A stretch of 64,000 bases of DNA from Elusimicrobiota bacterium (GTDB lineage: Bacteria > Elusimicrobiota > Elusimicrobia > UBA1565). A program made the translations under genes and the position numbers. Positions 11,723 through 57,573 of this stretch are shown piece after piece. Under the pieces are notes generated by a model that saw only the letters and a program-made list of their open reading frames with translations, searched no databases and had not been told where the DNA came from. The stretch lies in contig JACPXC010000046.1 in NCBI GenBank assembly GCA_016196755.1, positions 1 to 64,000 on the forward strand. The letters are read 5' to 3'. The first letter of the stretch is position 1. Each line of letters opens with the position of its first letter.

Positions 11723-12667
11723 CTAAAAGCGGATTCTGATCGTCGTGTGGTAGGCGGCGCCCAGGTCGCCGAACGGCAGCATCGCGAAGTCCACGCCTAG
11801 GCGGCCGTAGGCGACGCCGCCCCCGAAGGTGAAGCCCCCGAAACCATCGGCCTCACGGTTGGACGCGTTCCAACCGGCCCTGGCCGCGGCGCTCAACGTC
11901 CCGAACTTCCTCGACAGCTCGGCCCCGGCCGAGAAGCGGGGCGCGTCATCGCGCGGCAGGCGGACTTCGACGGCGAGAAGTATCCCCGGGGCGGGGCGCA
12001 GGGAGCCGCCGGCGTAGAGCGTCAGAGGCAGCGGGGCGGCCGTGGAGCCCAGCGCCAGCTTTCCCCCTAGGTTGCGCCAGCCGGCCCCGGCCGAGACGCG
12101 CCCGCCGCGCCACAAGAGGCCCGCGTCGGAGGCCGCCGTGCGGCCGTTGGCCGAGTCGAGGGTCTGCTCCACGAGCTTGACCGTCCCTCCGGCGGCCAGC
12201 CCGCCGACGACGAGGCGCCCGTAGGAGAGCGCGTAGCTCACGTCCGAGGCCCCGAAGGTCCCCACCGGAGCGTCGGTCTCGACGAGGCCCCGGCGCTCGA
12301 TGTCGGAGGCGCCCAAGGTCTTGACCGAGAACGCCGCCACGCCCCAGGCGTTGCGCTTGAGCCGCGTGTCGCGCAGCGACAAGAGCGGGACGGCGAGCAC
12401 CCCGTACTCGTGGTTCAGACCCTGGAAGTGGCTGTCATGGGTGGCCGCCGCCTCCACCGCCTCGAGGAAGGCCAGCCCCGCCGGGTTGTAGTTGGCCGCG
12501 TGGGCGTCGTCGGCCAGGCCGCCGAAGGCGTCGCCCATAGCCGCCGGCCGGGCCCCGGCCGGGATCTTGAGGAACGCCGCGGCCGAGGTGCCCTTGTCGG
12601 CCCGGCCGAGGGCGCGCGCGGGGACGGCCGGCGCAAGCAGGAGGAGCGCGAGAGCGAGGGCCCTCAC
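11723..12667 (-). CDS. PorV/PorQ-family outer-membrane protein, cassette B
   Basis: A 314-residue predicted outer-membrane barrel with signal peptide (MRALALALLLLAPAVPARA). The family hallmark is at residues about 30-70: AAFLKIPAGARPAAMGDAFGGLADDAHAANYNPAGLA. Alternating beta-strand patterns continue to a C-terminal aromatic residue (TIRIRF). In Bacteroidota, PorV binds sorting-domain cargo after passage through the type IX translocon and hands it to the attachment complex; PorQ-type relatives are less defined. The GTG start overlaps the giant gene's stop in GTGA (12664-12667), so the two are made together. The specific pairing with that cargo is inference. Confidence 0.85.
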   Translation of the reverse strand: MRALALALLLLAPAVPARALGRADKGTSAAAFLKIPAGARPAAMGDAFGGLADDAHAANYNPAGLAFLEAVEAAATHDSHFQGLNHEYGVLAVPLLSLRDTRLKRNAWGVAAFSVKTLGASDIERRGLVETDAPVGTFGASDVSYALSYGRLVVGGLAAGGTVKLVEQTLDSANGRTAASDAGLLWRGGRVSAGAGWRNLGGKLALGSTAAPLPLTLYAGGSLRPAPGILLAVEVRLPRDDAPRFSAGAELSRKFGTLSAAARAGWNASNREADGFGGFTFGGGVAYGRLGVDFAMLPFGDLGAAYHTTIRIRF

Positions 12668-15600
12668 CTCAGGACCGCCATCTTGAAGAAGGCCGAGCGG
12701 CCGCCGACCTTCACCTGGCCGATGTAGAGCCCGCTGGCCGCGTCGCGGCCCGAGTCGTTGGCTCCGTCCCAGGCGTGGTAGTAGGTCTTGCCGCCCTGCA
12801 GGAAGCCCAGCTCGATGGTCCGCACGCGCTCGCCCGCCGCGCTAAAGACCATCAGCCGCCCGTCGCCGTCGACGCCGGAGGGCACGGCGATCCGGATCAT
12901 CGTGCCGCGCACGGTCTGCGGCCCGGCCCCGTGGATCGGCGTGACGGTCTTCGGCGAGAGGTCGAACGGGTTCGGGAAGTTGTACGCGCTCAGGTCGGCC
13001 CCGCCGTAGGCGTTGCCGGAGATGACGGCCGCCGCGGCGTCAAAGAGCACGAAGGTCGAGAAGTGGTCCACGGCCAGCGAGACCGTCCGGTTGAACGCGT
13101 CGAGCTGGTAGTCGGCGCCGGTGACGTCCGGCTGCAGGACGAAGGCGTTGGCCGCCTCGTTGTACCAGTAGACGTTGAGGCGCGTCGGCTCCTGGCCCGC
13201 CGTATAGCCCAAGGTCAGGGTGGCCGGCCGGGCCAGGCGCGTGCTCGTCGCAGACGACAAGACGACGTCGTAGTAGGGCCCCGAGGGGCGGACGTCCGGC
13301 GGCGTGGCGGCCATGGCCCGGAGAAGGTCGGCCGGGTAGGCCGCCGCCTCGCGGCGCAGGGAGCGCACGACGGCTTCCCCGGCCGGCACGCCGGAGAGGG
13401 CCAGCGACCGGGCCCCGAGCAGGAGCTCATCGGAGCGGCGCAAAGCCACCGCCACGCTCGAGGAGGCGTCGGCAAAGAACGTGCCCTTGGGCAGCGCTAG
13501 GCGGCCGGCGTCCCCCTCGATGGCCAGCGTCCCGCCGGTCAGATTCGAGACCCTAGTCGAGTTGCTGCCGTCAAGGCCGGCGAAGAACGCCGCGGTGGCG
13601 ACGGCGAGGAACTCGCCGCCGTCGGCGGCGTCGGGGTCGAGCGCGGCGGTCCGCGCGGCCAAGCGCAGGCTGAAGCTCGACTCCGAGACCTCCGGCGTGT
13701 ACACCGCCGAGATGCGCCGGCGGTCCGCGGACACCGACGCCTGCGACAGGCTCCCGCGAGCCGCGGCGGTGGCCAAGAGCAGGGACGCGTCGAGGTCGGC
13801 CGAGGTCCGCGCGCGCAGAGGCTGGGACACCGCGAACTCCACCAGGAAGTCCGAACCCGAGCGGCGCGACTTAGCGCTCACCCTCGGCGCCGGGGTGCGG
13901 AACACGACGTCGAGCGAGCGGACCTCGGCGCTCGAGGCGAACACCAGCGCCGCGGCCTCGGGCGGCGTGAAGGCCTGGTCGTCGGCGCCGATGAGGAGGA
14001 GGCGGTAGGTCCGGCCCGGCGTGAAGCCGCTGACGCGATAGCCGCCCGCGGTGCGCCCCGCGGCGTCGCGGACCAGCCCCCCCGCCAGGACCTCGGAGAG
14101 GTCGGGGGCGGCGGCAAAGACCCGGCGCACCTCGTCCTCACCCGGCGCCGAGCCGTCCGGCCGGCGCAGGGTCCCGGTCAGCGTCGCCCCGCGCGAGAGC
14201 AGCACCGTCCCCAGCGAGACGGAGGCCGTGGTCACCCGCACCGAGAATACGCGCGGGGCGTAGCCCCGCGCCGCCACGGTGAGGCGGTAGGCGCCGGCGG
14301 AGAGCCCGGCCGCCGTGAAGCTGCCGTCGGGGGAGGCGAGCAGCACCGTGTCGCCCAGCGGCCCGGTCAGCGGCGGAGTCCCCTCGAGCTCGAGGAACAC
14401 GCGCGCGCCCGCCTGGCCTTGCGCGCCGTCGGAGTCCGAGAACAGCGGCTCGCCGCCGGCCGCGACGGCCCGGCCCGAGACCGAGTAGGGCGCGGAGCGC
14501 AGGGGCAGGCTCAGCGAGGTCGTGCTGAGGACGTCGACGGCGGCCACCACGGACTGCTCCCACGGCGGGACCGGGTCTCCCGGGACCCCGTCGCGCGCCG
14601 CCAGCACGAGGTCGTAGAAGCGCGTCTCGGGGTCGAGGCCGCCCACCGTGAAGCGGCCGTCGGCGCCGCTGCGCGCGCGCGCCGCCGGGCGGCGCAGGCT
14701 GTCCCCGGCCCCGGCGACCGACGGACGCGCCGCCACGGCCACGCCCGCCGCCGGCGCCCCGGTCGCCGCGTCGCTCAAAAGTCCCGAGACCGCGGCCGCC
14801 GCGCGCAGGCGGACGACTCCCAGGTCGACGCTGACTCCGGCCTCCACCCGGACCCCCGAGCGCACCGCCGGGGCCAGGTCGGCGCCGCCGGCGGCCGGCG
14901 ACGGGACGAACTCCACGTCGTAGAGGCCGGGAAGGACGCCTTGGATGAAGACCCGGCCCTGCGCGTCAAAGAGAGGCCTGCGGCAGCCGTCCTCGTCGCA
15001 GTCGGAGCCCGCGGCCGGGAAGAACCCGCCGTCGACCCAGGGCGCGGCCACCGCGGCGATGCGGAGCTCGGCCGGCAGCAGGCTCCGGTCCGAACCGTCG
15101 AGGACGCTCACCTCGGCGCTGCCGTCGGCGCGCCTCCGCTCCAGGGCCAGCCGCGCCCGGACGGCCCCGGCAGCCTCCATCGGCACCAGCCCCACTTCGG
15201 CCGACCCGCCCGAGACCGTCAGGCGCCGGGGACGGGCGGCGAAGGCCGGAGGAAAGCCCAGGTCCGAGACGCCCAACGTATACTCGCCGTCCGGCACCGT
15301 GTCGAGCGCGAAGCCGGCCGGCGCCCCCGCCTCGGCCTCGACCAGCGCCGAGCGCAGGCGCGCGCCGGCGCGGTCGGAGAGCGCCACCCGCAGCGGCCGC
15401 CGCCCCGCCGTGCCCGGCGGCAGGGACACCGACCCGGCCACACGTCCTCCCGGACCCACGCTCAGCTCCAGCGTCGTGTCCGCCGAGACGCTCAGCGCCT
15501 CGGCGACGGGCGCCAGCTCGTCGCCGTTCTCCGGACTGCCGTCCATGTCGCCCGGGATCCGGGCCAGGTACGCTCCGGGCGGCACCCCGGGAATCCGGAA

Positions 15601-18600
15601 GGCGCCGTCCGCCGAGAGCGTCCCCACGTAGGCGATGGCCGGGGCCGCCGGTTCGGGGTTCCAGGCGGCGCAGGACGCGCCGGCCCGGGCCAGCGGCCCG
15701 GCGACCGCCGGGAAGCCGGGGCCGAGCGGGATGAGCTCGACGCGCGCCGAGGAGAGGACCCGTGCTGCCGAGGAGGACAGCAGGCAGTAGGCGGCGCGCG
15801 CGGCATGCGCCGCCAGGCCGGGGACCGAGCTGACCGTCACCGCGAACGCCGCCGAGGAAAGACGGACGGCTCCGGTCATGACGACGCGGCCCGACACCGT
15901 GCGGCTGGCGCCGGCCAGGTCCACCGAGGCCGCGGCCGTCGCCCCCGGGGAGAGCTCGAGCGAGAAAAGGCCGGTCCGGCCGGTGAGCTTGTCGAGGAAG
16001 GTCCAGCGGTGGGGTCCCGCCGCCAAGCCCGCTAGGCTCAGCGTCATCGAGGCGGCGGCAAACTCGTAGGAGGCGCCCGCCAGGGCGGTGGCCACGGCGA
16101 CCGCCTCGGCGCCGCCCGAGGGCGGCTGATGGACGAAGGCCAGGCGCGCGTAGTCGGCCGCGCACAGGCAGGGGACGGCGGGCGGCTCGACGACCACCGT
16201 CAAGCGGGCGCCGGCGGCCGGCGCGACGAAGGCCAGGAGCGCCGCGCCGCCGGCCGCGTCGACCGTCACGGTCTGCGCGCCCGCGGGGCTCTTCTCGAAC
16301 CCCGGGACCTCGGCGCGCAGGTCCCAGCGGCCGGGCTCGAGCCCCCCGACCTCGAACGGCGCGGACGTCTCCGCCGCTCCCGTGGAGAGGCGCACGATCG
16401 TCCGCACGCGCCGGAGCAGGCGCGGCTCGAAGGCGTCGACTAAGACCGAGAAGCCGGCCGTCGCCGCGGCATCGGGGGCCGGCCCGGTCCCCGCGAGGCC
16501 GCGCGTGTCGCCCGTCACCGTGACGGTTCCCCTCAGCACGGAGCCCACGCCCAGCGAGAGCAGAGGCCCCCCGGCGCCGGAGGCGTCGCCGATGTCGGCG
16601 AAAGAGGGCACCGTCAGGGTCGTCGACGCGGCGCTAAAGCCGGGCGCCTGGGCGCTCAGCGTCCAGCTCCCGGGCTCGAGGCCGAAGAGCTTGAAGACGC
16701 CGCTCGATGGGACGACGCCGCTCGAGGCCGCAGCCACGAACAGCGCGGCAAAACGCGTAGGCAGCGCCGCGCCGGCGCGCAGGGCCGAGAGCGCCACCGC
16801 GGTGCCGTAGGCCTGGGTGCTGGGCAGGACCACCAGCCCGGTCGCCGTCGCCAGACGCGGCAGGTCGACGCGAACATCGACGACGGCGGCCGTGGCGGCG
16901 AAGACCGCCAGGGAGGTGCTGATCCCGACCTCCGGGAGGTCGAGCTCCAGCGTATAGACGCCGGGAGCCGCGGCCAGGACGGTCCAGGTGCTGGCCGCCC
17001 GGCCCAGGGCCACCGCGCCGTCGTCGGAGCTGGCGCCGAAGCGCGGGAAGTGCAGCCCCCCCGAGGCGACGGCGGAACCGTCCGCCGCGCGCAGGCGGAC
17101 CGCGCCGAAGAGCTCGATCGAGGTCAGGACGGGGAGACCCGCGCTGACCCGCACGAACGCCGGCGCCGTGAGCGACAACGCCCCCGCGTCGCCGCCGCCG
17201 GTCGACGCGGCGACCGAGAACGCCGCCGTGGAGAGCGTGCGCGCCTCGCCATAGACCAGTTGGACCGAGGAGGCGCGCACCGAGTAGCGTCCGCCCTCGC
17301 GCAGGCCGTCGACCCGGAAGGCGCCCGCGGCGTCGGCGCGGGCGGCCGAGCCGTACCCCGCCCCCGGGCCCTCCACCGACACGGAGGCTCCGGCTCCCGC
17401 CGCGCCCAGCGAGCCGCGCACGAACGGCGAGGTGGCCACGCGCACCTCGAGCGCCGGCCCCGGCAGGCCGGCCGCGCGGACCCGGACCGGATAGCGGCCG
17501 GGGGAGGCGAACGAACAGACGCCGGCGCAGACCACGCCGTCCCAAGCCACCGCCAGCGGGGCCGCGGCATCCCCGGCACCCGAGCGCCGGAAGAGCGGCG
17601 CGGTGAAGCCCGACTCCGTGGCGGCCGTCACGTCCCAGGCGACGGCCGGGTCGGCCAGCGTGAAGCGCGCCACGGCCCGCGCCCCGGCCGAGCCGGGGAC
17701 GAGGACAGCACTCGTGGCGCCGGGCGTCAGCGTCCCCGAGTCGATCGAGACGCCGGACGGCGCCACCGAGGACGCCCGCACCAGCACCAGGCGCTGGGCC
17801 TCCACGACAGCACCCGCCAAGGTGGCCGTGGCGCGGAGGAACTCGGAGTCCACCCCCGCCGTCGAGCTCAGGACGTAGAAGCCGGCCGAGCGCGAAGCCC
17901 CGGCCAAGATCGTGACGGAGCCCGTGCCGGCCCCGCCGGCCAGGAAGAACGCGGCGGTGACGTCGCGTTCGAAGCCCGCGGCCGCGGGCTGGCCCGCCGA
18001 GAGCGGCACGACGAGCGGCGCGGCGGCGGCGGCGGCGTTCCCGCAGCCGTCGGTCAGGTCCAGGAACATGGTCGGGGCGGTCTGGAGCGGCCCGAGGGCC
18101 AGCGGCGAGCGGTCGGAGAACTCCAGGCCCCGGGGCGGGCCCGCGGAAAGGATCAGCGCCGGCGCCGTGGTCAAGGAGACCAGGGTCCCCGCCCCTCCGG
18201 CGCGGCTGCGCAGCTCGAGCAGGTGCCGGCCCGCCGCGCGGGCGGGCGGGAAGCCGTGGTAGAAAAAGCTCACCGTCTCCCCTGGACGCACGGGGTTGGC
18301 CGCCGCCGAGCTCAGGCGCAGGGCCACCCAGTCCGCGCCCAGCGTCACGCTTCCGATCGACGGCGGGGCGAAGAGCACCTCGGAGGAGCCGGCCACCGTC
18401 CACGCCAGGCTGGTGGAGACGATCGTCACATAGCCCAAGGGCGGCGGCACGGCCGTCGAGATCCCCAGAGGGGCCGTCCAGCCCGACGGCGCGCGCAGGG
18501 CCACGGCCCCCCCCGCCCCCAAGCCCGAGGGCCCGGCCGTGAAGGTCACCGTCGCCACCACGGCCTGGCAGGCCGCCGTCGAGGCCGGGGCCGCGGCGGC

Positions 18601-23271: not shown

Positions 23272-23288
23272 GCCCGTGGCGATTCCCC

Positions 23289-23747
23289 CTATCTCTTGTC
23301 CTGTCGGGACATGAACTTGCGGCGCTCGGCCAGCTTGCGCATCTCCTCGGCGAACGCGGGGCTCTTCTTGAGCATGAAGCCGAAGTCGGCCGAGAGCAGG
23401 ACGAAGAGCCGGGTGGGCTCCTCGCAGACCACGGTGGCGCTGCGCGGGTCGCGCGAGAGGAGCGCCATCTCGCCGAAGAAGTCGCCCGCCCCGAGCCGCG
23501 CCACCTGCTTCTTAAAGAACAGGATGGTCTTGACGCGCACGCTGAGGGCGCCGTCGTGCACGATGTAGAAGGCGTCCCCGGGGTCGCCTTGGCGGAAGAC
23601 CGTCTCCCCCGCCTTGTAGCGGCAGAGCATGATGTACTTCACGATCTGCTCGAGCTCGCCGACGTTGAGCGGCGCGAAGAAGTCCACCTTGCGCATCGCG
23701 CGCGCCAAGGCGCCGTAATCGGCGTCCGACATCGTCAGTTTCTCCAT
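23289..23747 (-). CDS. stand-alone cyclic-nucleotide-binding domain protein
   Basis: A 152-residue protein made almost entirely of one CRP-type cNMP-binding domain: KAGETVFRQGDPGDAFYIVHDG (about residues 47-68) and the phosphate-binding cassette FGEMALLSRDPRSATV, with the Glu and Arg that contact the cyclic nucleotide. There is no helix-turn-helix, so it is not a transcription factor by itself. It has no signal peptide and should be cytoplasmic. The ATG at 23747 has a GGGAGG ribosome site. It sits 16 bases after the barrel gene and directly before the giant gene of cassette B; cassette A has no counterpart. A sensor or scaffold role is inference. Confidence 0.87.
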   Translation of the reverse strand: MEKLTMSDADYGALARAMRKVDFFAPLNVGELEQIVKYIMLCRYKAGETVFRQGDPGDAFYIVHDGALSVRVKTILFFKKQVARLGAGDFFGEMALLSRDPRSATVVCEEPTRLFVLLSADFGFMLKKSPAFAEEMRKLAERRKFMSRQDKR

Positions 23748-23763
23748 CGCCGCCTCCCGTGAT

Positions 23764-26513: not shown

Positions 26514-26553
26514 AGGGTAGACGCCTCCTTCGAGGCGCGCAATACCCGGACGG

Positions 26554-26763: not shown

Positions 26764-26768
26764 ACGTC

Positions 26769-26774
26769 ATTATA
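26769..26774 (-). promoter_or_regulatory. -10 box in front of the small membrane protein and cassette B
   Basis: A perfect TATAAT on the minus strand ends 5 bases before the ATG at 26763, which would make the mRNA leaderless. I see no convincing -35 box, because the terminator hairpin of cassette A occupies that region. Confidence 0.45.
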
Positions 26775-26780
26775 GGAAAT

Positions 26781-26799
26781 CCGCCCCCGGAGGAGGCGG
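26781..26799 (-). terminator. terminator hairpin after cassette A PorV/PorQ gene
   Basis: On the minus strand, directly after the TAG of the PorV/PorQ gene, an 8-bp GC-rich stem with one G-T pair closes a 3-base loop, followed by ATTT. The U-tract is short, so termination may be partial. Confidence 0.55.
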
Positions 26800-51700: not shown

Positions 51701-54659
51701 GCTCGGGGGTGCTGGGGAACTGATTGGTGACCGTAGCGACAGCGACCAGGTCGAGGTTCGCGTCGAACTTGGCGATGTGGTGCGTGAGGCCCAACTCCTC
51801 GCCGCTCGAGACCGCCACGTAGAAGTTGCCGACGTCGTCGATCATCAGCGCGTCGGCGTTGTGGTGGAAGTCGCCGGCTATGCCGGTGTAGGTGGCGCGG
51901 TCGACCTCGTTGAGGTTCAGGTCGTATTTGATGAGCTTCATCCCGCCGCCCGGGAAGCCCGCGCCGTCGGCGGCATAATAGAGGAAGCCGTTGCGGGCGT
52001 TCGCGTGGGTCAGGTTGCCGACCGCGGCGGAATCGATCGGCACGGAGCTGACGACGTTCAGGTTCAGGTCGAACTTGGTCAGCACGAAGAACGTGTAGTC
52101 CTGGTCGCGCTCCTGGACGTAGATGTGGCCGCCGGCGAGGAACATGCCGTCGCCCGCCCGGTTGCCGCCGAGGGTGATCGAGGAGATCAAGGCCCCGTTG
52201 GCCGCGAACTTGCCGATCGCCGAGTGGTCCGGCGTGTCGCCCGGGGAGCCCGACGTGGAATGCCAGTTCGCGTAGAAGTTGCCCGTGTCCGTGTCGACGA
52301 AGACGTAGTGCATCGCCTCGTTCTGGTTGACCGTCGAGTTGATCTTGAAGGAGCCGGCCGGGGAGCCGTTGAACGTGAACGCCAGCGACGAGCCGCCGCC
52401 GGAGCCCTCGAGGCCCGGCGCGCCGTTGGCCGGGCTGCCGCTGGTGAACTGCACCGGGAAGGTCGAGGACACGGCCAGCCACTTGGCGTTGGAGGCGGTG
52501 ACGCCGATCCCGGCCACTTCGCCGAAGTCCCCCGGGACCTCCTCGGCGAAGACCAGCGAGAGGTCCTGGTTGTAGTGCCAGACCGTGGCGACGTGGTCGC
52601 CGGAGGGGCCGGTCCGCCCCACGATGAAGAGCCGGCCGGTGACCGGGCTCAAGACCAGGGCGCTGGGCTCCTCGTCGGTGTTGGGGGTGTTCGCGTGCCA
52701 GAAGCTCGCCGCCACGGAGGCGAGGGCCAGATTGTATTCCACAACCGTCAGGTCCTGGTTGCCGAAGCTGTTGATGATGCCTGCCGAGACGTAGATCGAT
52801 GAGAGCGTCGAGACCGCCAGCGAGGCGTTGCTCTCCAGGATGTCGTGGCTATACGCGTTCTGAAAGGTCACGTTCTGCAATACGCCGCTCGCGTCGTAGC
52901 GGGCCAGGGAGAGAGCGAGCTTGTGGGGGCCGGCGGTCGAATTAGAAGAGAAGCCCAGCGCCCAGACCGCGCCGTCGGAGGCCACGTCGACGTCGTACCA
53001 GGCCGCCGAGCCGGTGATGCCGGAGGTCTTGGTGGAGAGCGAAATCGCACCGGTGTTCATGTCGAACTTCCAAAGGGCGCCGTCGAACTGGCAGGCCTCC
53101 GGGTCCGTCTCGCAGTCCTCCGGGCCGAGCCTCTGGATGGCCCCGGCGATCCACAACGTGGAGGTCACGGTGTCGGTGTCGGCGCCCAGCGAAAAGTCGT
53201 TCTTGTCGTAGGGCCCGTTGGCCGTGGCGCTGGAGAGGATGCCGCCGTCGGGGGCCACCTTGATGACGGCGACGTCCACGCCGACCGTCGTCGGGCCGGA
53301 AGCCGTTCCGACCACATAGGCGTTGCCGGAGGCGTCGAAGTCGATGCTGAACTTGCCGGCGTCGGTCAGGTCGAAGAGGGTGGTCGAGGAGAGGAATACC
53401 GCGCTCGAGTCGAACTTGGCGAGTTCCACGCCGGTCTCTCCGGCGAGGAGCTCCCAGATGTTGCCGCTCGGGTCGATGCCGATGGCCAGGCCGCCGCCGT
53501 CGTCGCCCCCGCTGTCGCCCTCCTGCGGGTTGAATCCGACCGTGACGATGTCGCTGCCGGTGTTGACCTTGGTGGCGTAGGCGAGCGTCGAGCTGACGAC
53601 GTGGAGGGAGTTGGACGGGAAGCCGCCGCTGCCGGTCGCATTGCAGGCGAGCGTCAGCTTGTCGCAGATCTGCAGGCCCGGGAACGGGCCGGAGCCGACG
53701 ACGTACATGTTGCCGTTGCTCAGGTCGAAGCTCAGCGAGCGTTCGTCCGAGGTCCCTCCCGTCTCGGAGTCGGCGGTGATCGTCGTGGAAGCGAGTTGGA
53801 CGAGGGATGCGTCGAGGCGGAAGACGTCGGTATGGGTCTGGCCCGGAGTCGAGGACACCGCCGTCACGTAGATGTCCCCGGAGCGCTCGCGCAGGGTGAC
53901 GCCGCCGCGGTACGCGCGGTTATTGAAGGTCGTCGAGGAGATGAGGCCCAGGCTCGGCAGGCTCGGGCCGAGCTTCGCCACGACCAGAAGCTCGGTGGCG
54001 ACGTCGATGGCCGCCACGTAGGAGTTGCCGGAGCCGTCGCGGTAGATGTTGCGGACTTGTCTGCCGACCTCGTAGCTGCCGTTCACCACGGTGCCGGTGG
54101 CGTCGTTGACGAGGTTGGCGTCGAAATGGTTGACGAAGAGGTTGCCGCCGCGGATCGAGGCCAGGACCGTCCCGGTCCCGCCGTCGCCGGAGATGCCCGT
54201 GAAGACGCCGCCGTTGCTGCCGTCCTCCGAGTACTCCTTAAGGAGGCCGAAGTTCGCGTCGAGGGCGAGCAGGCGGCGGTTGGTCTGCCCGTCGCGCCCG
54301 GCGACCAAGACGACGCCGGGGAACACGGCGACGTCATAGGGCTCGTCGAAGCTGTTGGGTCCGCTGTTGAACGTGCTCGAGGCCAGCACGACGCCGATCG
54401 AGGAATACCTGACCATCAGCCAGTCGTAGCTCGAGAGCCCGCCGGAGGTCTTGCCGACGACGTAGACCTCGGTGCTCGGGGTCACGGCCAGGGCGCTGGC
54501 GCGGTCGTCGTCGCCGCCGTCGTAGCTGGCGCCCGAGGGGTTGGTGAAGTCGCCGAAGAAGCCGATGGCGTAAGATGGGACGGCGAGGGAAGCTAGGAGT
54601 AACCCTAGCCCCATAGTGCGCGCCAATGGCGCGGCGGGGTTCCTCGGCGTTTCTTTCAC
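27771..54659 (-). CDS. giant surface protein A (8,962 residues) with FlgD-like sorting domain
   Basis: An uninterrupted 26.9-kb frame starting at GTG, with signal peptide (MGLGLLLASLAVPSYA) and FlgD-like/type IX-type C-terminus (NFPNPFD, RIYNVAGELV, ASGVYILEYHVNGQSVYHKM; last 125 residues or so). Residues 20 to about 3,660 are beta-propeller-like repeats (GNIYVA, KYDxNLNE types) in tandem blocks. Two PA-IL/LecA-like lectin modules lie near 4,070-4,170 and 4,840-4,940 (INAQGTWN, GALVARVG, LAMNDSSYEDNSG). An NW-type module lies near 4,200. A dozen or more modules of the YYLRAFRDVNGN...GEPSG type and two PPC-like modules (near 5,770 and 6,550) follow. From about 6,880 it is collinear with giant B, including a ZU5-like region near 8,640-8,840. 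It is probably surface-anchored and may bind glycans. Confidence 0.9.
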   Translation of the reverse strand: MKETPRNPAAPLARTMGLGLLLASLAVPSYAIGFFGDFTNPSGASYDGGDDDRASALAVTPSTEVYVVGKTSGGLSSYDWLMVRYSSIGVVLASSTFNSGPNSFDEPYDVAVFPGVVLVAGRDGQTNRRLLALDANFGLLKEYSEDGSNGGVFTGISGDGGTGTVLASIRGGNLFVNHFDANLVNDATGTVVNGSYEVGRQVRNIYRDGSGNSYVAAIDVATELLVVAKLGPSLPSLGLISSTTFNNRAYRGGVTLRERSGDIYVTAVSSTPGQTHTDVFRLDASLVQLASTTITADSETGGTSDERSLSFDLSNGNMYVVGSGPFPGLQICDKLTLACNATGSGGFPSNSLHVVSSTLAYATKVNTGSDIVTVGFNPQEGDSGGDDGGGLAIGIDPSGNIWELLAGETGVELAKFDSSAVFLSSTTLFDLTDAGKFSIDFDASGNAYVVGTASGPTTVGVDVAVIKVAPDGGILSSATANGPYDKNDFSLGADTDTVTSTLWIAGAIQRLGPEDCETDPEACQFDGALWKFDMNTGAISLSTKTSGITGSAAWYDVDVASDGAVWALGFSSNSTAGPHKLALSLARYDASGVLQNVTFQNAYSHDILESNASLAVSTLSSIYVSAGIINSFGNQDLTVVEYNLALASVAASFWHANTPNTDEEPSALVLSPVTGRLFIVGRTGPSGDHVATVWHYNQDLSLVFAEEVPGDFGEVAGIGVTASNAKWLAVSSTFPVQFTSGSPANGAPGLEGSGGGSSLAFTFNGSPAGSFKINSTVNQNEAMHYVFVDTDTGNFYANWHSTSGSPGDTPDHSAIGKFAANGALISSITLGGNRAGDGMFLAGGHIYVQERDQDYTFFVLTKFDLNLNVVSSVPIDSAAVGNLTHANARNGFLYYAADGAGFPGGGMKLIKYDLNLNEVDRATYTGIAGDFHHNADALMIDDVGNFYVAVSSGEELGLTHHIAKFDANLDLVAVATVTNQFPSTPELGFDDGTVYVAGHSDPALVQQVYLRKFDTSLAYSGQSVTMTVTGATPGFSMLEDPDGNAVLHMTSSTADGGDFLVFKFDKDLVQLSSGQFDAGFNAADTAFGVFPDSTGTVLLGGLGMNGGHSDAVLLRRSLPAGAGGGGPTLAGSFTGNYASETSSAIFHGGSEDLALAIAVDGTPNVYVVGYSSQGPNGNDWAIIKYDAAGNRLADRAFNSLSFNDDRAQEAVFAGGSLYVLGHGSYYPRLAKYDSSLNEVDAAYLAGSPSFPGDGGPGSPLGLAVDGSGNIYTAWGSFPNQGGVVTVNKLDSGFSIIATTNIAGPFVFTGQGTQNGVLRLSNSGDVFIAGLLVSSAVAVHKFDSSLVFLSSRVISDLPFIAGVTAGYSSVVNNLYVTGVSSNTVPESVTSLFRLNTNLVLESSTTISAEGSPAGDYRSLVVSNDVTDQVYVAGAGPFPGFQRCDYSLAGCSQTSADGEPATALVVVSSQQVYVAINANGVDFVSKRLDLSEFGGGGGDEGGGVVELASDGTFIYLGRTDSNDPGVAELHKLSPPSTLIASGTITGLGEDNDIKLVYHGASLYVVGSASGPTTSDIDAAVWKIDPATMLMVSSRTLDSTDGLRGDFVQTATVNAAGNLILAGGIQDSATTFAAAVWSYDTGSDVLTLLSALHAPGANSDILSGVASTGTSVLWLVGYSSMTGAPGADKMALTLWRLSAGALQHVSSMQGFADSMDIRADITADLNNLFVAAERVNTARNLDLAFLKYDLNGSPVVESYWHSESPFRHEVVGGITLDASGDPLISGGTEDVSTSSGASAYWRYTATTGALVGGFPKTLADGRLYKPVRHGADVYSAVHQSAGAILLTGGTLISGGEGLQGGGGAGSPTVLTYAGSLPAGVRVNSTQDRNEVLFNLAVDTDTGNFFTVAHSTTASNFGATPDDTFLLKVSPSGVVLASAPLQGAANGDALAWSGTHVFVGEKEGSVRRIAKYDAGLVRLSSVTVDPDHVGNITRAAFTGGFLYTVNDGGSVENGAKIIKYDASLNEVARATRAPAGGGDHHNADDISAGAGGDIYVAVSSPNVTPPIIGALYRFNSALVELSSVSLTGTLGSMARVAFGGSKVYVASGDSAPPAHAILHAYDSSSLDSVGVSSFVYVAGASPEPALAASESSLVLGLTSSTADGGDFLAFRLDPNFVQISSGRFDAGFSGADSLLSLAVYDGDNILLAGAGRNGSHDDGVALVRSLPGGEGEASGGSPALTFSGTFGSANGQNVASSNGFNVVGHQVVVDTFTSGGPFVYAVFSATTGFVGDSPSVELIARFDVSGTFLSSVTLIGDRGGNGLVQDSAGNVYIADSNGDGMPIGDRWVAKYTKELAFISSAPVFTNNIGPMQWDGANIFAHADGSWLLRLNTDLSVSASAQYTAQPDFNSALGGAFDGAGNIFLGVDNSSTTGYEARLLKYPLNFANGAAPTLDVPLSTALIPRWHQGALASVGGSLYVAANSTDGTKTFLRKFDSSLNYTGVSSTFTNTTALLGTRLTAGPDGNLYAATTVSGTVSNDAYLALKYDPNLVFLASAVYNGISNTGGAAAGIAVRNSSNVYLTGTSSNGENPGDYKGATVLVNLSGSGAGAPLVHAKGASEFVISETDNNEQAIDAAFGGGKFLTAWQKKLQNGDNDYVRGQLITTAGGLSGAQIPFTPGDITGWCGESSPNLASDGSDFLLVAGCGGMGGDNYKTQAVLVGSDGTLAGPKVDLNAGHAGGDIEHGNAAFDGTNYLVVWSSGSGAQRDVFGRFVSSGGTAGTGPFVIANAAGHEREPYVAFGGGKYLVAYHDDTRLGGDIDADVMGQFVLDSGSLDGSPFRIDAGDVNSKNPVAVAHNGTNYFVVYHENVDFSGGGQLDIFGALITSTGGVSARFPIDSGANFRLSVSAPVWEGDRWRLVWSDRVGHSGSSLISQSTTVIKMVTADAAGNALESPQIIASGVSGKIPYLAVARTGASKTFGFINRQVSGFGFENSSDNDLYGLLLSSAPPPAVSSVTLAFSGAFSTGALAGNDAGGGDLAHHIAIDTVSAGGPFVFVTIHSTNAAVGETPDQVTIVKYDLTGTFLASATLQGDRSGDAFVSEGGFLYVAEKDGGSMRRMVKYTSDLARLNSTVVGDADVGNITDGASRGGFIYTINDGGFSSQGAKLIKYDANLIELTRVNIPIGAPHINGNGIAISPIGGEVFVTVIQSSGNPVHKLLKYDQDLIPLAERDISSLFANNDEGGAELAFANGVLMAGGADGSNLYIRKFDANLNYSGASSTIPVLSASPGFGLRAGPDGFFYVSFSSANSLDAGNFSVRAIDADLVLKSSVSFDGGFNDEDLATQVAVLDSTRVFVGGGSNNGSSDHQSVVFVKNLTGAGAPPPGGPQGDGFWGIANKDGRLWASNRSQDAVKRFDAPSFPVSGGAAPDQQLAADGPRAVVVDAGGNLWVAVATAPAFTGAAARTLARYADTGGPDGEVAASPSNTLTALLSDVWAAAFRPDSGDLWAANRTGGGASVVSYLRDGGSTLPNPTYSDGGASTFTTFAQLPGAAGLGFDSANNLWVTVPSLGQIRRYRNQSGTISGSTSALITSIPAPLAVAFDALGNMFVTEAATGSVPGGGTVWRFNNNGTVGAPFISTVPIQADGGKLLAGLAFNGTNLFGADFKGNQLVGVQTQPPPPPAQFGRIQGTLSYSGTQAGSNFKIGFTTRSFGFGDGDVIISTSALGGFAHAGLTAPNTYYLIALLDRDGDGQPNGQEPFGQHSADTLTFGPREGVFVAVDQTVSNVDVRLWDQVAVTGTLTNQSSQSGSLMLQTWIGTPNDADLRGRTDFHITLPSTATSYALFTSTLSNLHIRAFVDGNNSAEFEVGEDSVTVGPIDLSAAVLGSTTNVNIAISSSAGGSVSFNGVSVIGPNIPTNGDAAFLRVDLVSSGGNAQLTGMRVTLRGDAPSASLNARVFVDNNGDGAFQGGIDLLLGDRSFSGGTPAVADVPFSSTHTVTSSTSSVYVSLGIFGVPPGRTAGVRLADSSAFTFTVGQLAGAAGAFPTDSDLAVTQFSLAGRPGDMGYPNPASTPSTGGFDTGLYVNQGQRLEINAQGTWNIGGTPSGPDGTGSFGGLRAELPIGALVARVGGGAWFLAGSASAFNSGASGTLFLAMNDSSYEDNSGSLAVDFRIVPSTVTRTWLGSSGFGQDADIAQNWQGGQVPQTGESVLFDGTVSNAACDWNLGGLRLARWTMTGGYTGVVRLRAPGANPDNFNEVFLDSHAVIAAGTLNLGRGKSFRVQGGIFVQGGTLDLGANDVFVDVGAAGVRVENGGLLRFAPVSTPSFAGFFPSGPDSFPFVVADGTVNVSGRGFLAIGRSNFTLSSAANILAFHGIRFESFGGGSGGAASGPSGTALTIARSSAAVLNFNGLEFFGDYTAGVDASGAPGGAVLTMLDARGDKRGTPNEVDPNNVLFWNPDGGGAPASIAGDVLNGGVTIGGSTVIVRASTQPFFDTNAFSGGLVFLSTRDSFGAYTLSNLDAPATYYLYAHRESIPLNPNDFPDGGEPRGAFGNTDGFLRSAPVFVAPGQNLTAKDITLKDWFEVTGSVNNNSNQFGPILVGAAHVNSTTTFESISFPLGTGGFPPLAAPATSLIYVAWVDVNNNRQLDGFEAFGSTGVIVPPASGLVIDVGGGSAASGGTVTLIPGFPHDGLVGDIGPQALLRLGLAASGSDATLTGLVFARSGGPQSQQVFSVYGDSNGDGLLNIGGAAGDSHLGSTDTASGAPSSPLITFNNPLALPAGTTRTLFLAFEPLGLAAGHGGFPPLSLTLATSNQLLLSAGEMAEQGGYPVQTSAVIGWSAFGTTQGDEFGGGGYFTGVQFAPGQQVTFTATGTWKFGQLTDTRGIAGTEGQDTLADGKRVGALLASVGDGWVAVGTQTTVTANRFGTVHLSANDAPGDYGNNEGLVTTNIQVTGSTTSHVQGTITYTGGETGNLFVNLTQNCFGPGGAGVCSPIVSTQTLTLAGGTTIYSYGLHIPFGGFFSVRAEVQNNPAHRSGFVNGFQAPVGSTATIDFPVFAGLGTITSTVSYSGVMNFGDFQIGVTTSPDFEHEVAFFGGFSSPNAGPFAITDLPIPNTYYMVGFRDGNSNHEPDGPEAFGALASVPSSQLVLSQLSSFVVPIFVSSTAHAAPLVLVDRGAVSGRLFFDTPVSNAQIILFASHGRPGSPGFLAEARDFQFVQSAATGTSRDYFLDLLKPATDYVVFAFVDGNFNEAYDAGELFAADFGPITVPAGGFANRDIRLSAPAAPSRVQNFRVSSAAVSQVTFTWDLAPGATEYRLLNFAGNVTVATLGASASTYTEGASPGSTSTIRAIQPANSVGVSTATFLNGLARGPFNVPGTPTFSLIGQSSATVSWSLNGNNSLTFWILQRSTAETGPFSEPFTGPALSFTDLSLAPNTTYYYRVRPNVEPVLSSTASVVTLPTVSPSIGGFLFYSGQQSGNVVLQAFTSSGPFSGLVSSVTLPGATSQPYYLSLAGNTSYFLRAFVDVTGENAFTAGEDQGTFGSPIFVPAGAVTGKDFSVAVDTVPPAAPAGLTAGVSFGRVDLRWNAPTSSQDGSVLADLAGFKVQRTTAGAANFATLSSLTLSGVPSLTGAVTFADLSPIGGVDNVYRVLSSDYGRNESASGALGVRPAVGGTISGSISSFTATTSGAFRVRLSTSPRRADPFLSESTLESFSFAGLEDGVYYLQGFRDTNSDNRQDAAVEPSGTHGGLASPFGINIIGGNTVTGRTVTICDRATLPLGSDQPGTLSTTDCRALDKGFGHFTDLFTFRAGGGAAGSVGVGSTVDISMIVTGGGFAPELIILGPDGQVVRRDNDPHNPHVTFTAGQPGLYIVEPTSFNPGQTGSYALLMNVFGGFSGSISGTVSYGGSKPGPVRLQLFESQDANAFPFFVTSQGGTGPFVIDNLRDGTFYLRAFRDVNGNFTQDPGEPSGVFGVSSSSPTAIVVTGGVPNTANAALTLADPAAGRVEGQILRQGSLVGTIRVEVGQRACNDCSDLNVVAFTTIPAAGAYALDFVAPATNYIVQAFVDGDANNRSGALEAKGSSSPVSVQANSTSTVNILVRDPGTGSAGSSIIFGTITYNGAFTGTMFVGFASDQNFNFIPYFLTSATTGFFRKTGIAGGTTYYVGAFIDVNGDGTISDDGAFVEPSGDFQGELFIPNSSSVGVAFTISDPSSGSISGLLTYTGSVAGPLVVQASRESGSNNNDNGGHRQISIARTASSTYSYSLPFLSPGSFRMYAFVDSNGNQRSDFGEPFFRRETLVQVSTGAQVSGIELVLFDAGAGGGGGAVGRIEGTLAYNGGQPGPIVVQAFTTNTYLGNPFRTTSGGSFGSQPYNFENLPAGTYFLRAFKDSNFNTTFEPQFEASTTSFHSPAGITLTNDRPLAGSVDGTLTDAGQGGPEGGASLSGTAEYRGAFSTGTIFLALFQDGGQDGRTDDLVRLSTFPFSAAPTTYTFSGLAGGQYYLRGFLDRNANFSPDVNEPFGLTDAQGISVFGSVNAIRIDICDRSALDLTPGAQNAFTITGADCRSSESTTLGASHKLLTFRGTRGQVLDAAMDSTEDNYLYLYDDHGQLVGEADEGGPQAGDARLKVTLPASGDYTLAASFFSFGVAGDFRLLLQNSGGALGAISGEVRYSGSQGGKVVMGLFNSANFDAQGSFIDGRDLPGPGPFAFQSLASETSYYLGAFIDVNLNHSPDQGEDFGVFTTAPPTPTAIFLRAGQDVSGLTLVIDPSTAAYAGNEGRVTGTIGYAGALTGVLRVEFWADNSFSGAPLAVRTIPTGVGPYDLSVPGGQPYVVRAFLDLNSDFVPNPDEPKGVYAPRGQGAELVFVPSNGSISGIDLTLTDPGFQPGAEAATGQGTVSLTPAVVSAGGTAVVVSSFVVGTAGIGAGGRVAFGVPFGWTPPQGNLAGAPGFTAISASNTVGGAVLSTEPAPGGAPGIVARVVGTPLNPGATVLFTYTNVAVPCAIGPSTLFFGSASSQTLAPAPLFGGQPSINVVLGSAVSVRPLQLSFGLLQNATSQRLVLGSFDGCDNQSSVAAAANVILRARRYNFANGLYEPVADMFVSSNIAGVFDSTAVVSFAAGTSSTTFRLRSAAVGNLALEIAANLTGTGTTGYANVNVLADNTISSVTVSTTPFTSLAQTSATIRADGDPNSPKQAFINFILGDPNRSWSVSIASSPYKTDSVPSPVAFFSGFGQPARGQLAWDGRDFRGQRVGQGTYYVRVDVGGVRNDSLRITLQAAQLAMRVLDAGVTPSLPLDSVAVEVFGQFGGGSFSTDRSGNLTLSGLAAGGYRLGFSKDGYLVGRASVTVSSASAITAMTRLDTSISLSSTSAGLLSILMRRAPSLVVVPSIPLSSTQPFTQWGFLQVSNATGTFQRNGPMRLLAGATTFDDGGQWDPSLQAFVTKTQLRFEVAPDTYTVRALLSGFDAVEASVFAADGRQTTLNLPSFVALSSFTGTITLPAGFNTGGVFVSVNAVPITTTTRLDGGFSGLDVPAGLNVATYTITGMRPGSYRLQANTAGLRAVTIGSATIVSGQQTRADFPAYQDPNSTVLVATVGVVGINSVQGGFPELFPGGPGIRLSLSAWAPSSPNGFYQTVAVSTVGVSSATVIVNMTGLTTGIEYQVFAHLETNGNADFDVSGGFPKRVILSPLSGRGATAFDFAAASGVIRGTIYLPTGSRDFGSVDLFGETIASARPEQVGKRFQENAAGLPNFVCGNGASTDVVGNCPVGINVASFTVTGLNSETLDLSLLYKTTGRSVKTRVSIVNGSTTTLLADLRDPTFRITGAVLPQISVVEFSSSPAIVINSGRVGIKDRDGASVVIDTAAVDLGSVSSVDSLARVLAIRQSFGVAASTSFNPATDRVGYLTNAGTYTIRNVPPGVYLVRTEDLRTCDACQVIVPRQAQTVSVGSGDVRASTFTLTDGFSVSGVITLAGGISDARTLRLTLRNRRLEVVRSTGIALGNAAAGVAAGSVAYRLDGIPAGEFYTLTVEDQASQPLYVGRPFRFPDPGQSPTGLQASQLGADVALRRAAYLTGRFIDAATGESITERNATILPPNLRITAVANPWVEGGFAQAASSVAARPIRADGTFLVGPLFPDTPYDLNVAQDKWDLAFLAQGSQNYAPIQVSGLSLQSAELKDLGALSLTQGSSIKGTLVDAASTSTVLANIKVTGEPSFGDLDLHVETYSNAQGEFTLWVSTFVSPTYDLVFAPADGNLANDGRRFKTVPLTRFLVSTQPLRIELTELLGAVTGQALTADGGALSYPFGDQQGFPGAAIFLQPTNTLPRENPLGDTRVDTEADGVFSFPGVAPGVYTLRAVSLGYGVAAGTVTVTNGSFCISTTTVVGKCEAGLTLKRGAVVQGRILLPDGSAPSTNEVGGIAAADAQFTRFVIGTVDVDRTARTVNGYTITGFEPGVNYNLVILPPEKDDLDVVFPAEGRNVSFTAAESTTTKTINLTYSRSTPDCFAEAREKQLGNGQFQVKISCSEPLRKQTSADDDVDLLITKSTANSLGVNFSAPNGAGELLGGSNKLIANNRRNITVVYRTAADEARFSLRLDAFMATVDPATGESFRLVKIFDFNTTRSAAGAGTASFRPSAESIPDRLVTSETERPVNSAQGGEVNLQGYGDQSGVEQGEQFGLNFQPGSFESCSGGDTDYNCSGQTSDDNKVAVRVTGSLDPVQAANLAMLKLGYVPQRIQALQPSSFGTQATNNAFNANPFSSFYEVFLPLGIRAQLNKPVDITLPYDVALTSNNSIANLRVWSISNGAAPVEETTNKRVDTINNTITVAVDHFSTFVILNGPPGLVGGTFAEQKPIAFNFPNPFDCRSRTVTCNVAEGSCAGGALTGMGTVIHYAAPGGTQQLDHRFRIYNVAGELVDEFHKTGPGGTNLYDFWDCTNSSGRPVASGVYILEYHVNGQSVYHKMAVIKGSGL

Positions 54660-54679
54660 TGGTACGTTACAACTCGTTT

Positions 54680-54708
54680 ACTCTACCACAACATCCCGTC
54701 AGATGCAA
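54680..54708 (-). promoter_or_regulatory. internal promoter of giant protein A
   Basis: On the minus strand, TTGCAT (54708-54703) and TAGAGT (54685-54680) are 17 bases apart. The start would be near 54673, giving a leader of about 14 bases with no clear ribosome site before the GTG at 54659. The giant/PorV pair could thus be expressed apart from the FecR/barrel pair. Confidence 0.5.
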
Positions 54709-54725
54709 AGCGACTTAGGTCACAG

Positions 54726-55967
54726 TCAATAATCGTAGCTGAAGCCGAAAAGATAGTTGGCCGTGCTGTACGTATAGCGGTACGTCTTCTGGTATTTCAT
54801 GTTCGAGTCGGTCCACAGGAAATTGGCCTGGGCGAGCATCCGGAAGTTCGTCGCTATCGGCACGCCGTAGCCCAGCGTCAGCGCGTAGCGGTCCTGCACC
54901 TGCGTGTCGTTGAGGTAGAGGCCGTTGCCGTCCTGGACGAAACGGCCGAGGTGGCTCTGCCGCGACCAGTTAAATCCCAAAGAGGCCGTCGTCGGGTTCT
55001 CCTTGTCTCCCCAGGAGAGCGACGTGGCGGGGCCGGCCGACATCGACCAATAACTGTAGGCGTCGGGGATGAACTTGGTCTGCCCGGCGTCGTAGGTGTT
55101 CTGGTTGGAGCCCGTGTAGGAGAGCGCGGTGTTCATGCCCAGCGTGAGCCGGGCGCGGCCGTCGAGCACCTCGCGCGGGTGCATGAGCGAGGCGGTCAGG
55201 GCGTTGGCGAAGTCCTGGCGGTTCTGGTTCTCGAACTGCCCCGCGAGGTTCACGAGCGGCTGGTCGTGGAACGTCTGCCAGAGGAAGCGATAGCCCAGGC
55301 TCACCGAAGCCACCGGCTTGTCGTAGGGGAACGGGCGGGTCAGGACGAAGGAGAGCTGGTGGTTGAGGGTGTCGAGCGTGCGCACCCCGGCGGTCTCGCG
55401 GCCCAGCGGCAGGCCCGCCGGGTCGACGCCGGACTTGGACTCGAGGGACTTGAAGTTGCCGAAGCGCGTGTAGAAGAAGTCGTAGCCCAGGCGGTAGGAG
55501 AAGGGCTCCTTGTAGACGTTCTCGGCCTCGAAGCCCAGCCCGGCGGTCTGGGTGTCGAAGAGGCCCTTGCCCCAGGTCTCGTCGCGGGTCTCCTTTAAGA
55601 ACTCGAACTTGTAGGACAGCGAGGGCTTCACGCGCCAGGTGCTGCCCTCCAGCCCACGCAGGTAGCCCATCGAGACTCGGTGGGTCATGCCCTGGGCGAA
55701 TAGGGTCCCCGCGCCGACCGGGTCGGTGGCGTTCTTCGTGCCGCGGTAGGAACCGTTATATAGAGGAAGGAGCAGCTTGCCTGGCCCGAACTTGAGGACC
55801 GGGGCGAAGTTGGCCGAGACGTTGCCGTTGAGCCGGGTCTTGTCGCCCGCGAAGAAGTACTGTCCGCCGAGGAAGCTGGCGCCGTAGACCGGGATGACCT
55901 CGACCGCGCGGGCTTTCGCGCCGCAGAAGGAGACTAGGGCCATGATGGCCAGGGTTCTTTTCTTCAA
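54726..55967 (-). CDS. predicted outer-membrane beta-barrel, cassette A
   Basis: A 413-residue protein with signal peptide (TTG start; MKKRTLAIMALVSFCGAKARA) and amphipathic beta-strands along its whole length, rich in aromatic girdle residues and ending in FGFSYDY, typical of outer-membrane barrels. It is paralogous to the cassette B barrel: LLLPLYNGSYRG, FLKETRDETWGKGLFDTQT, YTRFGNFKSLES and SAGPATSLSWGDKENP have counterparts there. It begins 4 bases after the FecR stop, so coupling is likely. The family name is unknown to me. A channel or an assembly partner for the giant protein is inference from the conserved order. Confidence 0.77.
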   Translation of the reverse strand: MKKRTLAIMALVSFCGAKARAVEVIPVYGASFLGGQYFFAGDKTRLNGNVSANFAPVLKFGPGKLLLPLYNGSYRGTKNATDPVGAGTLFAQGMTHRVSMGYLRGLEGSTWRVKPSLSYKFEFLKETRDETWGKGLFDTQTAGLGFEAENVYKEPFSYRLGYDFFYTRFGNFKSLESKSGVDPAGLPLGRETAGVRTLDTLNHQLSFVLTRPFPYDKPVASVSLGYRFLWQTFHDQPLVNLAGQFENQNRQDFANALTASLMHPREVLDGRARLTLGMNTALSYTGSNQNTYDAGQTKFIPDAYSYWSMSAGPATSLSWGDKENPTTASLGFNWSRQSHLGRFVQDGNGLYLNDTQVQDRYALTLGYGVPIATNFRMLAQANFLWTDSNMKYQKTYRYTYSTANYLFGFSYDY

Positions 55968-55971
55968 GACG

Positions 55972-57573
55972 TTAAGGGATCAACCCGGACTGCATCAGGA
56001 TCTTCGGCTCGAACACCAGGTCGATCTTGCGGCCCCCGAACTCGGAAGCGGTGATGATCTGCTGGTAGTTGAAATCGAGGAGGCGCTTCTTGTAGTCGGC
56101 GCCGTTGGTGACGCCGGCGAAGTCGGTGTGGCTCGAGACCTCGCCGTTGTCGTCGATGATGTAGTTGTCGAACTTGTCCCAAATGGTGCCGAGGGCGTTC
56201 TGGCGGTAGACGATGTCGTGGAACTTGCCCGGGTCGCGGTTGCCGGTGCAGTTGTCAAGGTTCGTGCAGTTCGGGGCCTTGAGGACGTTCACGACGTTGG
56301 TGACGGTTCGTTGGTCTCCGACCCCGTTGATGTCGCCCATGCTCTGGATGCCCCCGCAGGCGGCGCCGACGCCGCCGCCGCACCCGCCGGGATTGTAGGC
56401 GCCGACACCAGACACCCAGGACGTGTGGGTGACATTGTTGAACTTGAGGTCGTAGGTGTCGAAGAGGGTGGTAAAGAACGGGGTCCCGGCCGGAAGGGTG
56501 AAAAAGTCATTCTGCCCGGGGTCGAAGGCGCGGGTCACGTCGTCGCCCGCCACGCCGTTGTTGTTGACGTCGACCAAGTGTCCGCCCGAGACGTTCTCGA
56601 CCACGGCGTCCTGGGTATTCGACCAGGCCGTCTGGTAACCGGTCAGCCAGAAGGTGCAGGCCGTGCCGATGCAGCCCGGCAGCTGGCGCAGGGCGGTGGA
56701 GATGTCGTCAGGCAAGGCGGTATTGAAGGTGCCCGTACGAAAGAAGTAATCGAAGCGGTCCGGACGCTCGTTGAGGACCACGAACTTGAACTGGTTGGCG
56801 GCCGGACGGAGGATGTACTCCTCGATGCGGACGCGGTTGCCGTTGACGTCGGTCATGACCTTGCCCAGCTGGTAGAGCGCCTGCTTGACTTCCTCGGCGG
56901 CCGCCGCGAGGATCTGCTCCTTGTTCATCTCGAGGCCGACCTCGCGCTTGATCTCGCGCCGCTCGGCGTCGCCGCTGTTGGTCTGCTTCTTCTCGCCGCC
57001 CTCGGGCTTGCTGATGCCGCGCAGGTCGACGTCGACGCTCTCGCCGGGCTTGAGCAGGATCTCGTTGCCCTTGTTGTCCTGGACGCCCAGGAGGCCCGAG
57101 AGCAGGTTGACGTTGGTCGAGCCGTCGCCGTTGACGTTGACGTCGAACTCCGTGCCGCGCACGGAGCAGACCGCGGTCGGGGTGCGCACCGCGAAGCGCC
57201 GGGAGGAGGCCTTGGTGACCCAGGCCTTGAGCTTGCCGAAGGAGAGCGTCATCATGCTCTCGGCTTTGCGGGAGGTCTCGAGCAGATAAGAGGAATTGGG
57301 CGCCAACTCGATCTTCGAGCCGTCGTCGAAGCTCATCGTCACGCGCGAGGAGCGGTCGGTCTTGACCTCGTCTCCGTTGTTGACGACGTAGTTGACCGGG
57401 ACCTCGTTCCAGCTGACGGTGTTGGGGCGGCGCAGGCGCGCCACGCCTTTGACGTCGGTGATGATGACCGCGGCGGAGAGCTCGCCGGCGAGGAGGAGCA
57501 GGGTGAAGAATACGGCCGTGAGGGCGGTTGCCCTCCGGCTTGCGCTCTCGGCGAAGGTCGCAAGTTGGTGCAT
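55972..57573 (-). CDS. FecR-domain secreted protein, cassette A
   Basis: A 533-residue protein. A long N-terminal signal peptide (hydrophobic core ALTAVFFTLLLLAG) is followed by a FecR domain, residues about 38-190: VKGVARLRRPNTVSWNEVP, GDEVKTDRSSRVTMSFDDGS, RTPTAVCSVRGTEFDVNV, SGLLGVQDNKGNEILLKPGE. Then come a helical stretch, an extended region with a possible Cys-containing glycine-rich loop (GGCGGGVGAACGG, about 395-410), and a conserved C-terminal tail (FGGRRKIDLV-like, ending SGLIP). In classic systems FecR relays envelope signals to a sigma factor; no anti-sigma membrane helix or ECF sigma gene is seen here, so the role may be structural. It has a strong promoter just upstream. Confidence 0.88.
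   Translation of the reverse strand: MHQLATFAESASRRATALTAVFFTLLLLAGELSAAVIITDVKGVARLRRPNTVSWNEVPVNYVVNNGDEVKTDRSSRVTMSFDDGSKIELAPNSSYLLETSRKAESMMTLSFGKLKAWVTKASSRRFAVRTPTAVCSVRGTEFDVNVNGDGSTNVNLLSGLLGVQDNKGNEILLKPGESVDVDLRGISKPEGGEKKQTNSGDAERREIKREVGLEMNKEQILAAAAEEVKQALYQLGKVMTDVNGNRVRIEEYILRPAANQFKFVVLNERPDRFDYFFRTGTFNTALPDDISTALRQLPGCIGTACTFWLTGYQTAWSNTQDAVVENVSGGHLVDVNNNGVAGDDVTRAFDPGQNDFFTLPAGTPFFTTLFDTYDLKFNNVTHTSWVSGVGAYNPGGCGGGVGAACGGIQSMGDINGVGDQRTVTNVVNVLKAPNCTNLDNCTGNRDPGKFHDIVYRQNALGTIWDKFDNYIIDDNGEVSSHTDFAGVTNGADYKKRLLDFNYQQIITASEFGGRKIDLVFEPKILMQSGLIP

Follow-up and report, generated by a model that had tools for sequence, protein, structure and literature searches.

The closest described counterparts of the locus reported here belong to the type IX secretion system (T9SS). 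In Flavobacterium johnsoniae, a single PorV serves all cargo proteins with type A tails; a type B cargo such as SprB depends on a PorP/SprF shuttle of its own, encoded downstream and apparently acting in stoichiometric amounts (PMC12618676). The PorP/SprF shuttle has been proposed to anchor its cargo (PMC9143113), and PorE-like envelope partners have been proposed for some type B operons (PMC12618676). The T9SS was found only in Bacteroidetes in one study (PMC4793230), and its genes are stated to be absent from phyla outside the FCB group in another paper (PMC11285876). Elusimicrobiota are reported to be enriched in proteins of more than 5000 aa with no COG assignment (PMC11573180). In the literature that could be reached without most subscription papers and preprints, no description was found of PorV, of a T9SS or of the present unit in Elusimicrobiota.

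The unit described below suggests that some form of type IX secretion exists beyond the phyla from which this route has been described. It lies in the window, that is, the whole stretch of 64,000 nucleotides that was analysed, which comes from an Elusimicrobiota MAG (the source genome: 4.59 Mb, 67 contigs, rated 100% complete). Gene calling and family scans placed two paralogous cassettes next to each other on the minus strand, between 57573 and 11723. Each starts with an FecR protein and an outer-membrane barrel, followed by a giant protein whose C-terminal tail is FlgD/type IX-like and then by a PorV-family barrel. The features are as follows.

55972..57573, minus strand: FecR1, exported protein of 533 aa with a signal peptide, an FecR domain at residues 68-160 (Pfam FecR, E=6e-18) and a phylum-specific C-terminal part
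54726..55967, minus strand: barrel1, a 413-aa outer-membrane beta-barrel with about 16 strands and an aromatic C-terminus, from an undescribed family
27771..54659, minus strand: giant1, predicted surface protein of 8962 aa, a stop-free ORF with a signal peptide
27774..28052, minus strand: tail1, C-terminal domain of giant1, FlgD-like / type IX type A-like (TIGR04183, 23.8 bits; cut-off 23)
26800..27774, minus strand: PorV1, PorV-family barrel (Pfam PorV, 29.6 bits; cut-off 27), overlapping the end of giant1 by 4 bp
24975..26477, minus strand: FecR2, paralogue of FecR1
23764..24978, minus strand: barrel2, paralogue of barrel1, overlapping FecR2 by 4 bp
23289..23747, minus strand: cNMP-binding-domain protein of 152 aa, predicted to be cytoplasmic (Pfam cNMP_binding, E=3e-21)
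12664..23217, minus strand: giant2, predicted surface protein of at least 3517 aa with CarboxypepD_reg and FlgD_ig domains
12667..12942, minus strand: tail2, C-terminal domain of giant2, FlgD-like / type IX type A-like (FlgD_ig, 29.5 bits; cut-off 27)
11723..12667, minus strand: PorV2 (UPF0164, 24.4 bits, over its cut-off; PorV, 17.4 bits, below its cut-off), overlapping the end of giant2 by 4 bp

In pairwise comparison, FecR1 and FecR2 share 29% identity over 529 columns (E=8e-69), barrel1 and barrel2 30% (E=6e-51), and PorV1 and PorV2 36% (E=3e-51). The two giants resemble each other mainly in the final ~1,050 aa, where they are 29.5% identical (E=2e-80); upstream of this they have little in common. 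The cassettes are flanked by rpoD and dnaG (read by sequence) on one side and by the enolase and phosphoglucomutase genes on the other. A doubled cassette on one strand at these coordinates, with every gene pair paralogous, had been proposed in the original prediction; gene calls and searches bear out the doubling, and the pairwise comparisons bear out the paralogy of all four pairs. The four-gene order proposed there holds for cassette 1 and is not exact in cassette 2, where the cNMP-binding gene had been missed.

This additional gene sits between barrel2 and giant2. A near-identical gene with a matching N-terminus follows barrel2 in a genome of the same genus (L025:12403-12861), and ORFs of 149-159 aa are found at the corresponding position in three more genomes from its family and order (L099, L100, L101). 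For the window and its same-genus counterpart the assignment is by homology; in the other three genomes the ORFs were assigned by length and position. The start of giant2 is close to this gene. No ATG, GTG or TTG codon that would start a signal peptide of giant2 was present in the upstream sequence, and in-frame ATC codons at 23283 and 23271 (minus strand, 23283-23269) precede the giant2 sequence IRAATFALLLAAAIPAAA. The same-genus orthologue (L025) has an ATG-started signal peptide, which begins MALRRTLCALAFLAAAPAAGA, and the in-frame ATCs of the window fit that start. Giant2 likely starts at the ATC at 23283 or 23271; the lack of an ordinary start reflects either the use of a rare codon for initiation or an error in the sequence.

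Domain scans of the giants show carboxypeptidase-regulatory, SdrD_B and SBBP domains along with others of the surface-protein kind. In giant1, diverged internal repeats are observed, and carboxypeptidase-regulatory-like domains lie near the C-terminus. Very long tail-bearing open frames occur in other genomes as well (G037:C6:90173, 17,343 aa; G004:C3:110811, 14,455 aa; G030:C6:189653, 13,077 aa). On another contig of the source genome, an open frame of at least 10,886 aa with a match to the type IX-like tail (G000:C25:1-32659) is apparently cut by the contig start.

The last gene of each cassette belongs to the PorV family. A PorV alignment matched chain F of PDB entry 6h3i (PorV) with E=6e-37; the two genes are true PorV relatives, as had been predicted, and each stands directly behind its cargo gene. 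Pfam PorV was matched by 26 of 41 family members and UPF0164 by most, and PorP_SprF gave weak matches in 2/41. The tails (n=55) matched FlgD_ig in 47 cases, TIGR04183 in 37, CHU_C in 29 and Por_Secre_tail in 14. When the tail family profile was compared with the PDB, chains of PorU, PorZ and FlgD were found.

The tail and PorV are closely linked in gene order. There are 23 PorV loci in the source genome, and a tail-bearing gene precedes PorV at 20 of them; the shared tail is about 63 aa long, and the overlap between the tail gene and the PorV gene is exactly 4 bp in 15 of these 20 pairs. Among the matches listed for seven genomes, a same-strand PorV gene follows 109 of 150 tails at a distance of at most 1 kb; on the opposite strand, none of the 150 has one at that distance. 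Chance adjacency was rejected on this difference between 109 same-strand and 0 opposite-strand neighbours. It had also been proposed that each giant brings its own shuttle. A PorV gene does adjoin each cargo gene, but this is not special to the cassettes, given the 20 of 23 PorV loci just described. The cargo-PorV pair is the wider rule, and the FecR protein and the barrel are the cassette-specific part. It should be added that, at three loci (L048:10447-10827, L053:10279-10641, L055:10109-10591), a short ORF of 120-160 aa that carries just a tail separates PorV from a larger gene with a tail.

The sequences of the two partners also vary together. Distances between tails follow distances between PorVs (Mantel r=0.40, p=5e-5) in 21 source-genome pairs, one of them without a recognised tail. 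After removal of close paralogues the correlation was r=0.24 (p=0.018). This correlation fits pairs that would have been inherited and diverged together, and is not proof of binding. The cassette PorVs are separated from the source genome's remaining 21 PorVs, on a branch that is itself without support.

A translocon of the matching type seems to be encoded elsewhere in the source genome. An SprA homologue of about 1,850 aa was detected with the NCBIfam SprA model in 129 of 150 genomes, and the source-genome homologue is located at G000:C22:6471-12035. An alignment of 11 members matched SprA chains only in the PDB (E=4.5e-27); with the single protein no SprA match was obtained, and the alignment was needed. 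TIGR04189 was matched by all 11 aligned members, and the score of the source-genome protein was 144 bits, below the curated equivalog cut-off of 200. Pfam SprA_N had no match in the source genome, and the control sequences were likewise without a match. Nine genomes that lack PorV were all without an SprA match (p=3.5e-9 if independent). These are nine small genomes of one genus (family f10, genus g25), and shared descent therefore explains part of the joint lack of SprA and PorV matches. By these homologies, a putative diverged but recognisable SprA/Sov-type translocon is present in the source genome and in most of the phylum; a search for an SprA homologue elsewhere in the genome was one of the checks named in the original prediction.

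Searches for the PorL/PorM (GldL/GldM) motor, made without a T9SS-positive control genome, gave one weak GldL match in 100 genomes, not in the source genome, and no GldM match in 100. In a search of 60 genomes, likewise without a positive control, no PorU catalytic region was found among the matches listed, all of which lay at the CTD end of the model. Since GldM and the PorU catalytic domain were undetected and GldL gave one weak match, a canonical T9SS is not claimed.

The gene order, the homologies, the tail-PorV linkage, the correlated divergence and the presence of an SprA homologue are the observations on which the following reading is built, and we consider it probable. The giant repetitive surface proteins, presumably adhesin-like in function, would leave the cytoplasm by Sec and then cross the outer membrane by a route that resembles type IX secretion but has diverged from it. 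Recognition of the FlgD-like tail would take place at the SprA-type translocon, and the cargo would be threaded through SprA. The PorV encoded immediately downstream would take the cargo from SprA, so that each cargo would keep its own PorV as shuttle and probably as anchor, and the FecR-barrel pair would serve the giants. Because no PorU-type sortase that could remove the tail was found among the matches listed, PorV probably stays bound to its cargo as a stoichiometric anchor. A permanent anchor of this kind would account both for the gene overlaps and for the fact that each cargo has a PorV to itself.

Alternatively, the PorVs might be interchangeable, recycled shuttles, their adjacency to cargo genes might set nothing beyond gene dosage and expression, and the tail might be cleaved after export by an unrecognised sortase. 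The single PorV used by all type A CTDs in Flavobacterium (PMC12618676) and the type A-like nature of the present tails speak for this alternative. A common shuttle, however, needs neither the more than 20 PorV paralogues found per genome nor the correlated divergence of each tail with its own PorV, and the listed PorU matches cover the C-terminal tail end instead of the catalytic region. We thus regard interchangeable shuttles as unlikely, and prefer a dedicated PorV for each cargo.

The distribution of the FecR-barrel pair was analysed across the phylum. Searched with a profile built from both barrels, 89 of 248 genomes (50 of 76 genera) proved to contain relatives; with an FecR profile the number was 84 of 248. 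A same-strand FecR gene lies within 3 kb of 105 of the 126 barrels compared, upstream of the barrel in 91 of these. Forty stretches around FecR-barrel loci, containing 42 barrels, were gene-called, and 25 FecR-barrel loci not cut by a stretch end could be resolved. At 21 of these 25, in 11 families, the pair is followed by a protein of more than 1000 aa and then by PorV. At the other four, PorV follows without a giant between, and in three of the four the gene next upstream of FecR bears a tail. The order returns in genomes across the phylum and is far from a chance arrangement; the genes form a linked set in relatives' genomes and are not randomly scattered, and recurrence of the four-gene order within the lineage had been put forward as one check of the original prediction.

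The giants of these loci are themselves related. The C-terminal region of giant1 (about 1,000 aa) matched 21 of 39 large proteins in the relatives' loci, and that of giant2 matched 22 of 39; the same region matched none of 37 large proteins from other loci of the source genome. In G224 (the same-genus genome), G190 and G210, as in the window, one strand carries two FecR-barrel pairs separated by 24-31 kb. One group of loci has the order cargo-PorV-barrel-FecR-FecR-barrel-giant-PorV. In L105, L120 and L128 (family f4), barrel-FecR-FecR-barrel stands between two cargo-PorV pairs, which amounts to a rearranged double cassette. In a scan of genome contigs with the FecR profile, the same genes were found on JACRDU010000162.1 (an Elusimicrobia MAG from groundwater); similarity was clear at two Elusimicrobia loci, and FecR matches elsewhere were marginal. 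L026 was rejected as a cassette, its FecR protein having no barrel behind it. FecR-like proteins without an adjoining barrel match are also encoded at G000:C37:31503-32051 and L058:6452-7183, the latter near another giant tail-bearing protein.

As for the two proteins themselves, the FecR domain is present in all 43 cassette relatives, and the AF2 model of FecR1 was confident for this domain only; any function suggested for the protein is read from the domain. The barrel family had no Pfam match in a scan of 40 members. The AF2 model of barrel1 has 16 strands (pLDDT 63). In the PDB it resembles generic outer-membrane barrels and transporters with low TM-scores, and no function was therefore read from the structure. 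The pair probably forms an envelope complex for one giant family and might, as is proposed for the PorE-like partners of PorP/SprF complexes, dock or tether the cargo-PorV complex.

A different possibility is that the FecR protein and the barrel constitute an independent module, for example for ligand uptake and sensing, which shares a transcript with the giant and PorV and nothing more. The generic transporters among the fold matches would suit such a module, as would the other arrangements mentioned above (barrel-FecR-FecR-barrel, and FecR-barrel-PorV without a giant). On the other hand, in 11 families the pair is tied to one homologous giant family and to cassette PorVs, which makes independence improbable in our judgement.

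It is much harder to maintain that the barrel is the export pore of the giant, as in two-partner secretion, with SprA uninvolved. A dedicated barrel directly upstream of each giant and the 16-strand model might suggest this. However, no POTRA or Omp85 Pfam match was found among 40 barrels, most tail-bearing cargos of the source genome have a PorV and no such barrel, and the tail and PorV together indicate the SprA route. Two-partner secretion via the barrel was rejected. Equally remote is a role of the FecR protein as an FecR-type signal transducer for a cassette sigma factor: the FecR domain of every member and the regulator-like, cNMP-binding gene of cassette 2 would be in keeping with it, but in the window proteins and most relatives (N-termini read by eye) the signal peptide leads straight into the FecR domain, leaving no cytoplasmic anti-sigma part, and neither cassette contains an ECF sigma factor gene, so that the anti-sigma role was rejected; the envelope sensor of the original prediction is not supported.

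In the preferred reading, then, an SprA/PorV route would carry each cargo on its own PorV, and the FecR-barrel pair would assist one giant family. We advance with less confidence, as a possibility that falls somewhat short of being probable, the broader proposal of a type IX-like branch outside the FCB group that uses SprA without GldLM and PorU, in which a co-translated PorV of its own would be the permanent anchor of each cargo and a phylum-wide FecR-barrel complex would serve one giant family. An SprA homologue together with about 20 PorV-cargo pairs in a 4.6-Mb Elusimicrobiota genome, with SprA found across most of the phylum, would widen the range of the T9SS. The many tail-PorV pairs per genome would offer natural variation in shuttle-cargo recognition, and thus a ready specificity set. 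In addition, some of the phylum's giant proteins, so far unexplained, would gain a concrete export route, and two partner families, FecR and barrel, are named.

Among known proteins, giant1 belongs to the same size class as the huge Elusimicrobiota proteins of PMC11573180; the accessible text of that report gives no secretion route or gene context for them, unlike the present analysis. The FecIRA signalling system has the FecR domain in common with the cassettes, which in contrast are without an inner-membrane anti-sigma segment, a sigma factor and a TonB receptor. The type A T9SS of Bacteroidota (SprA, PorV, PorU, GldKLMN) is alike in its SprA-type translocon, PorV family, Sec-exported cargo and terminal Ig-like CTD. 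It differs in that the host here is outside the FCB group and has many PorVs, each beside a cargo, and in that searches without a positive control detected here no GldM, no PorU catalytic domain and no convincing GldL.

The type B system of F. johnsoniae, SprB-SprF (PMC12618676, PMC9143113), resembles the cassettes in several respects. In both, the cargo is adhesin-like, very long and equipped with a sorting domain at its C-terminus, a dedicated outer-membrane shuttle gene lies directly downstream of the cargo gene, and several operons of the SprB-SprF type include a PorE-like envelope partner. The differences are found in the families employed: the shuttle here is of the PorV family and not PorP/SprF (to which 2/41 members gave weak matches), the tails are mostly type A/FlgD-like, and the extra partners are an FecR protein and an undescribed barrel. 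By analogy, the Elusimicrobiota arrangement looks like type B logic run with PorV-family shuttles.
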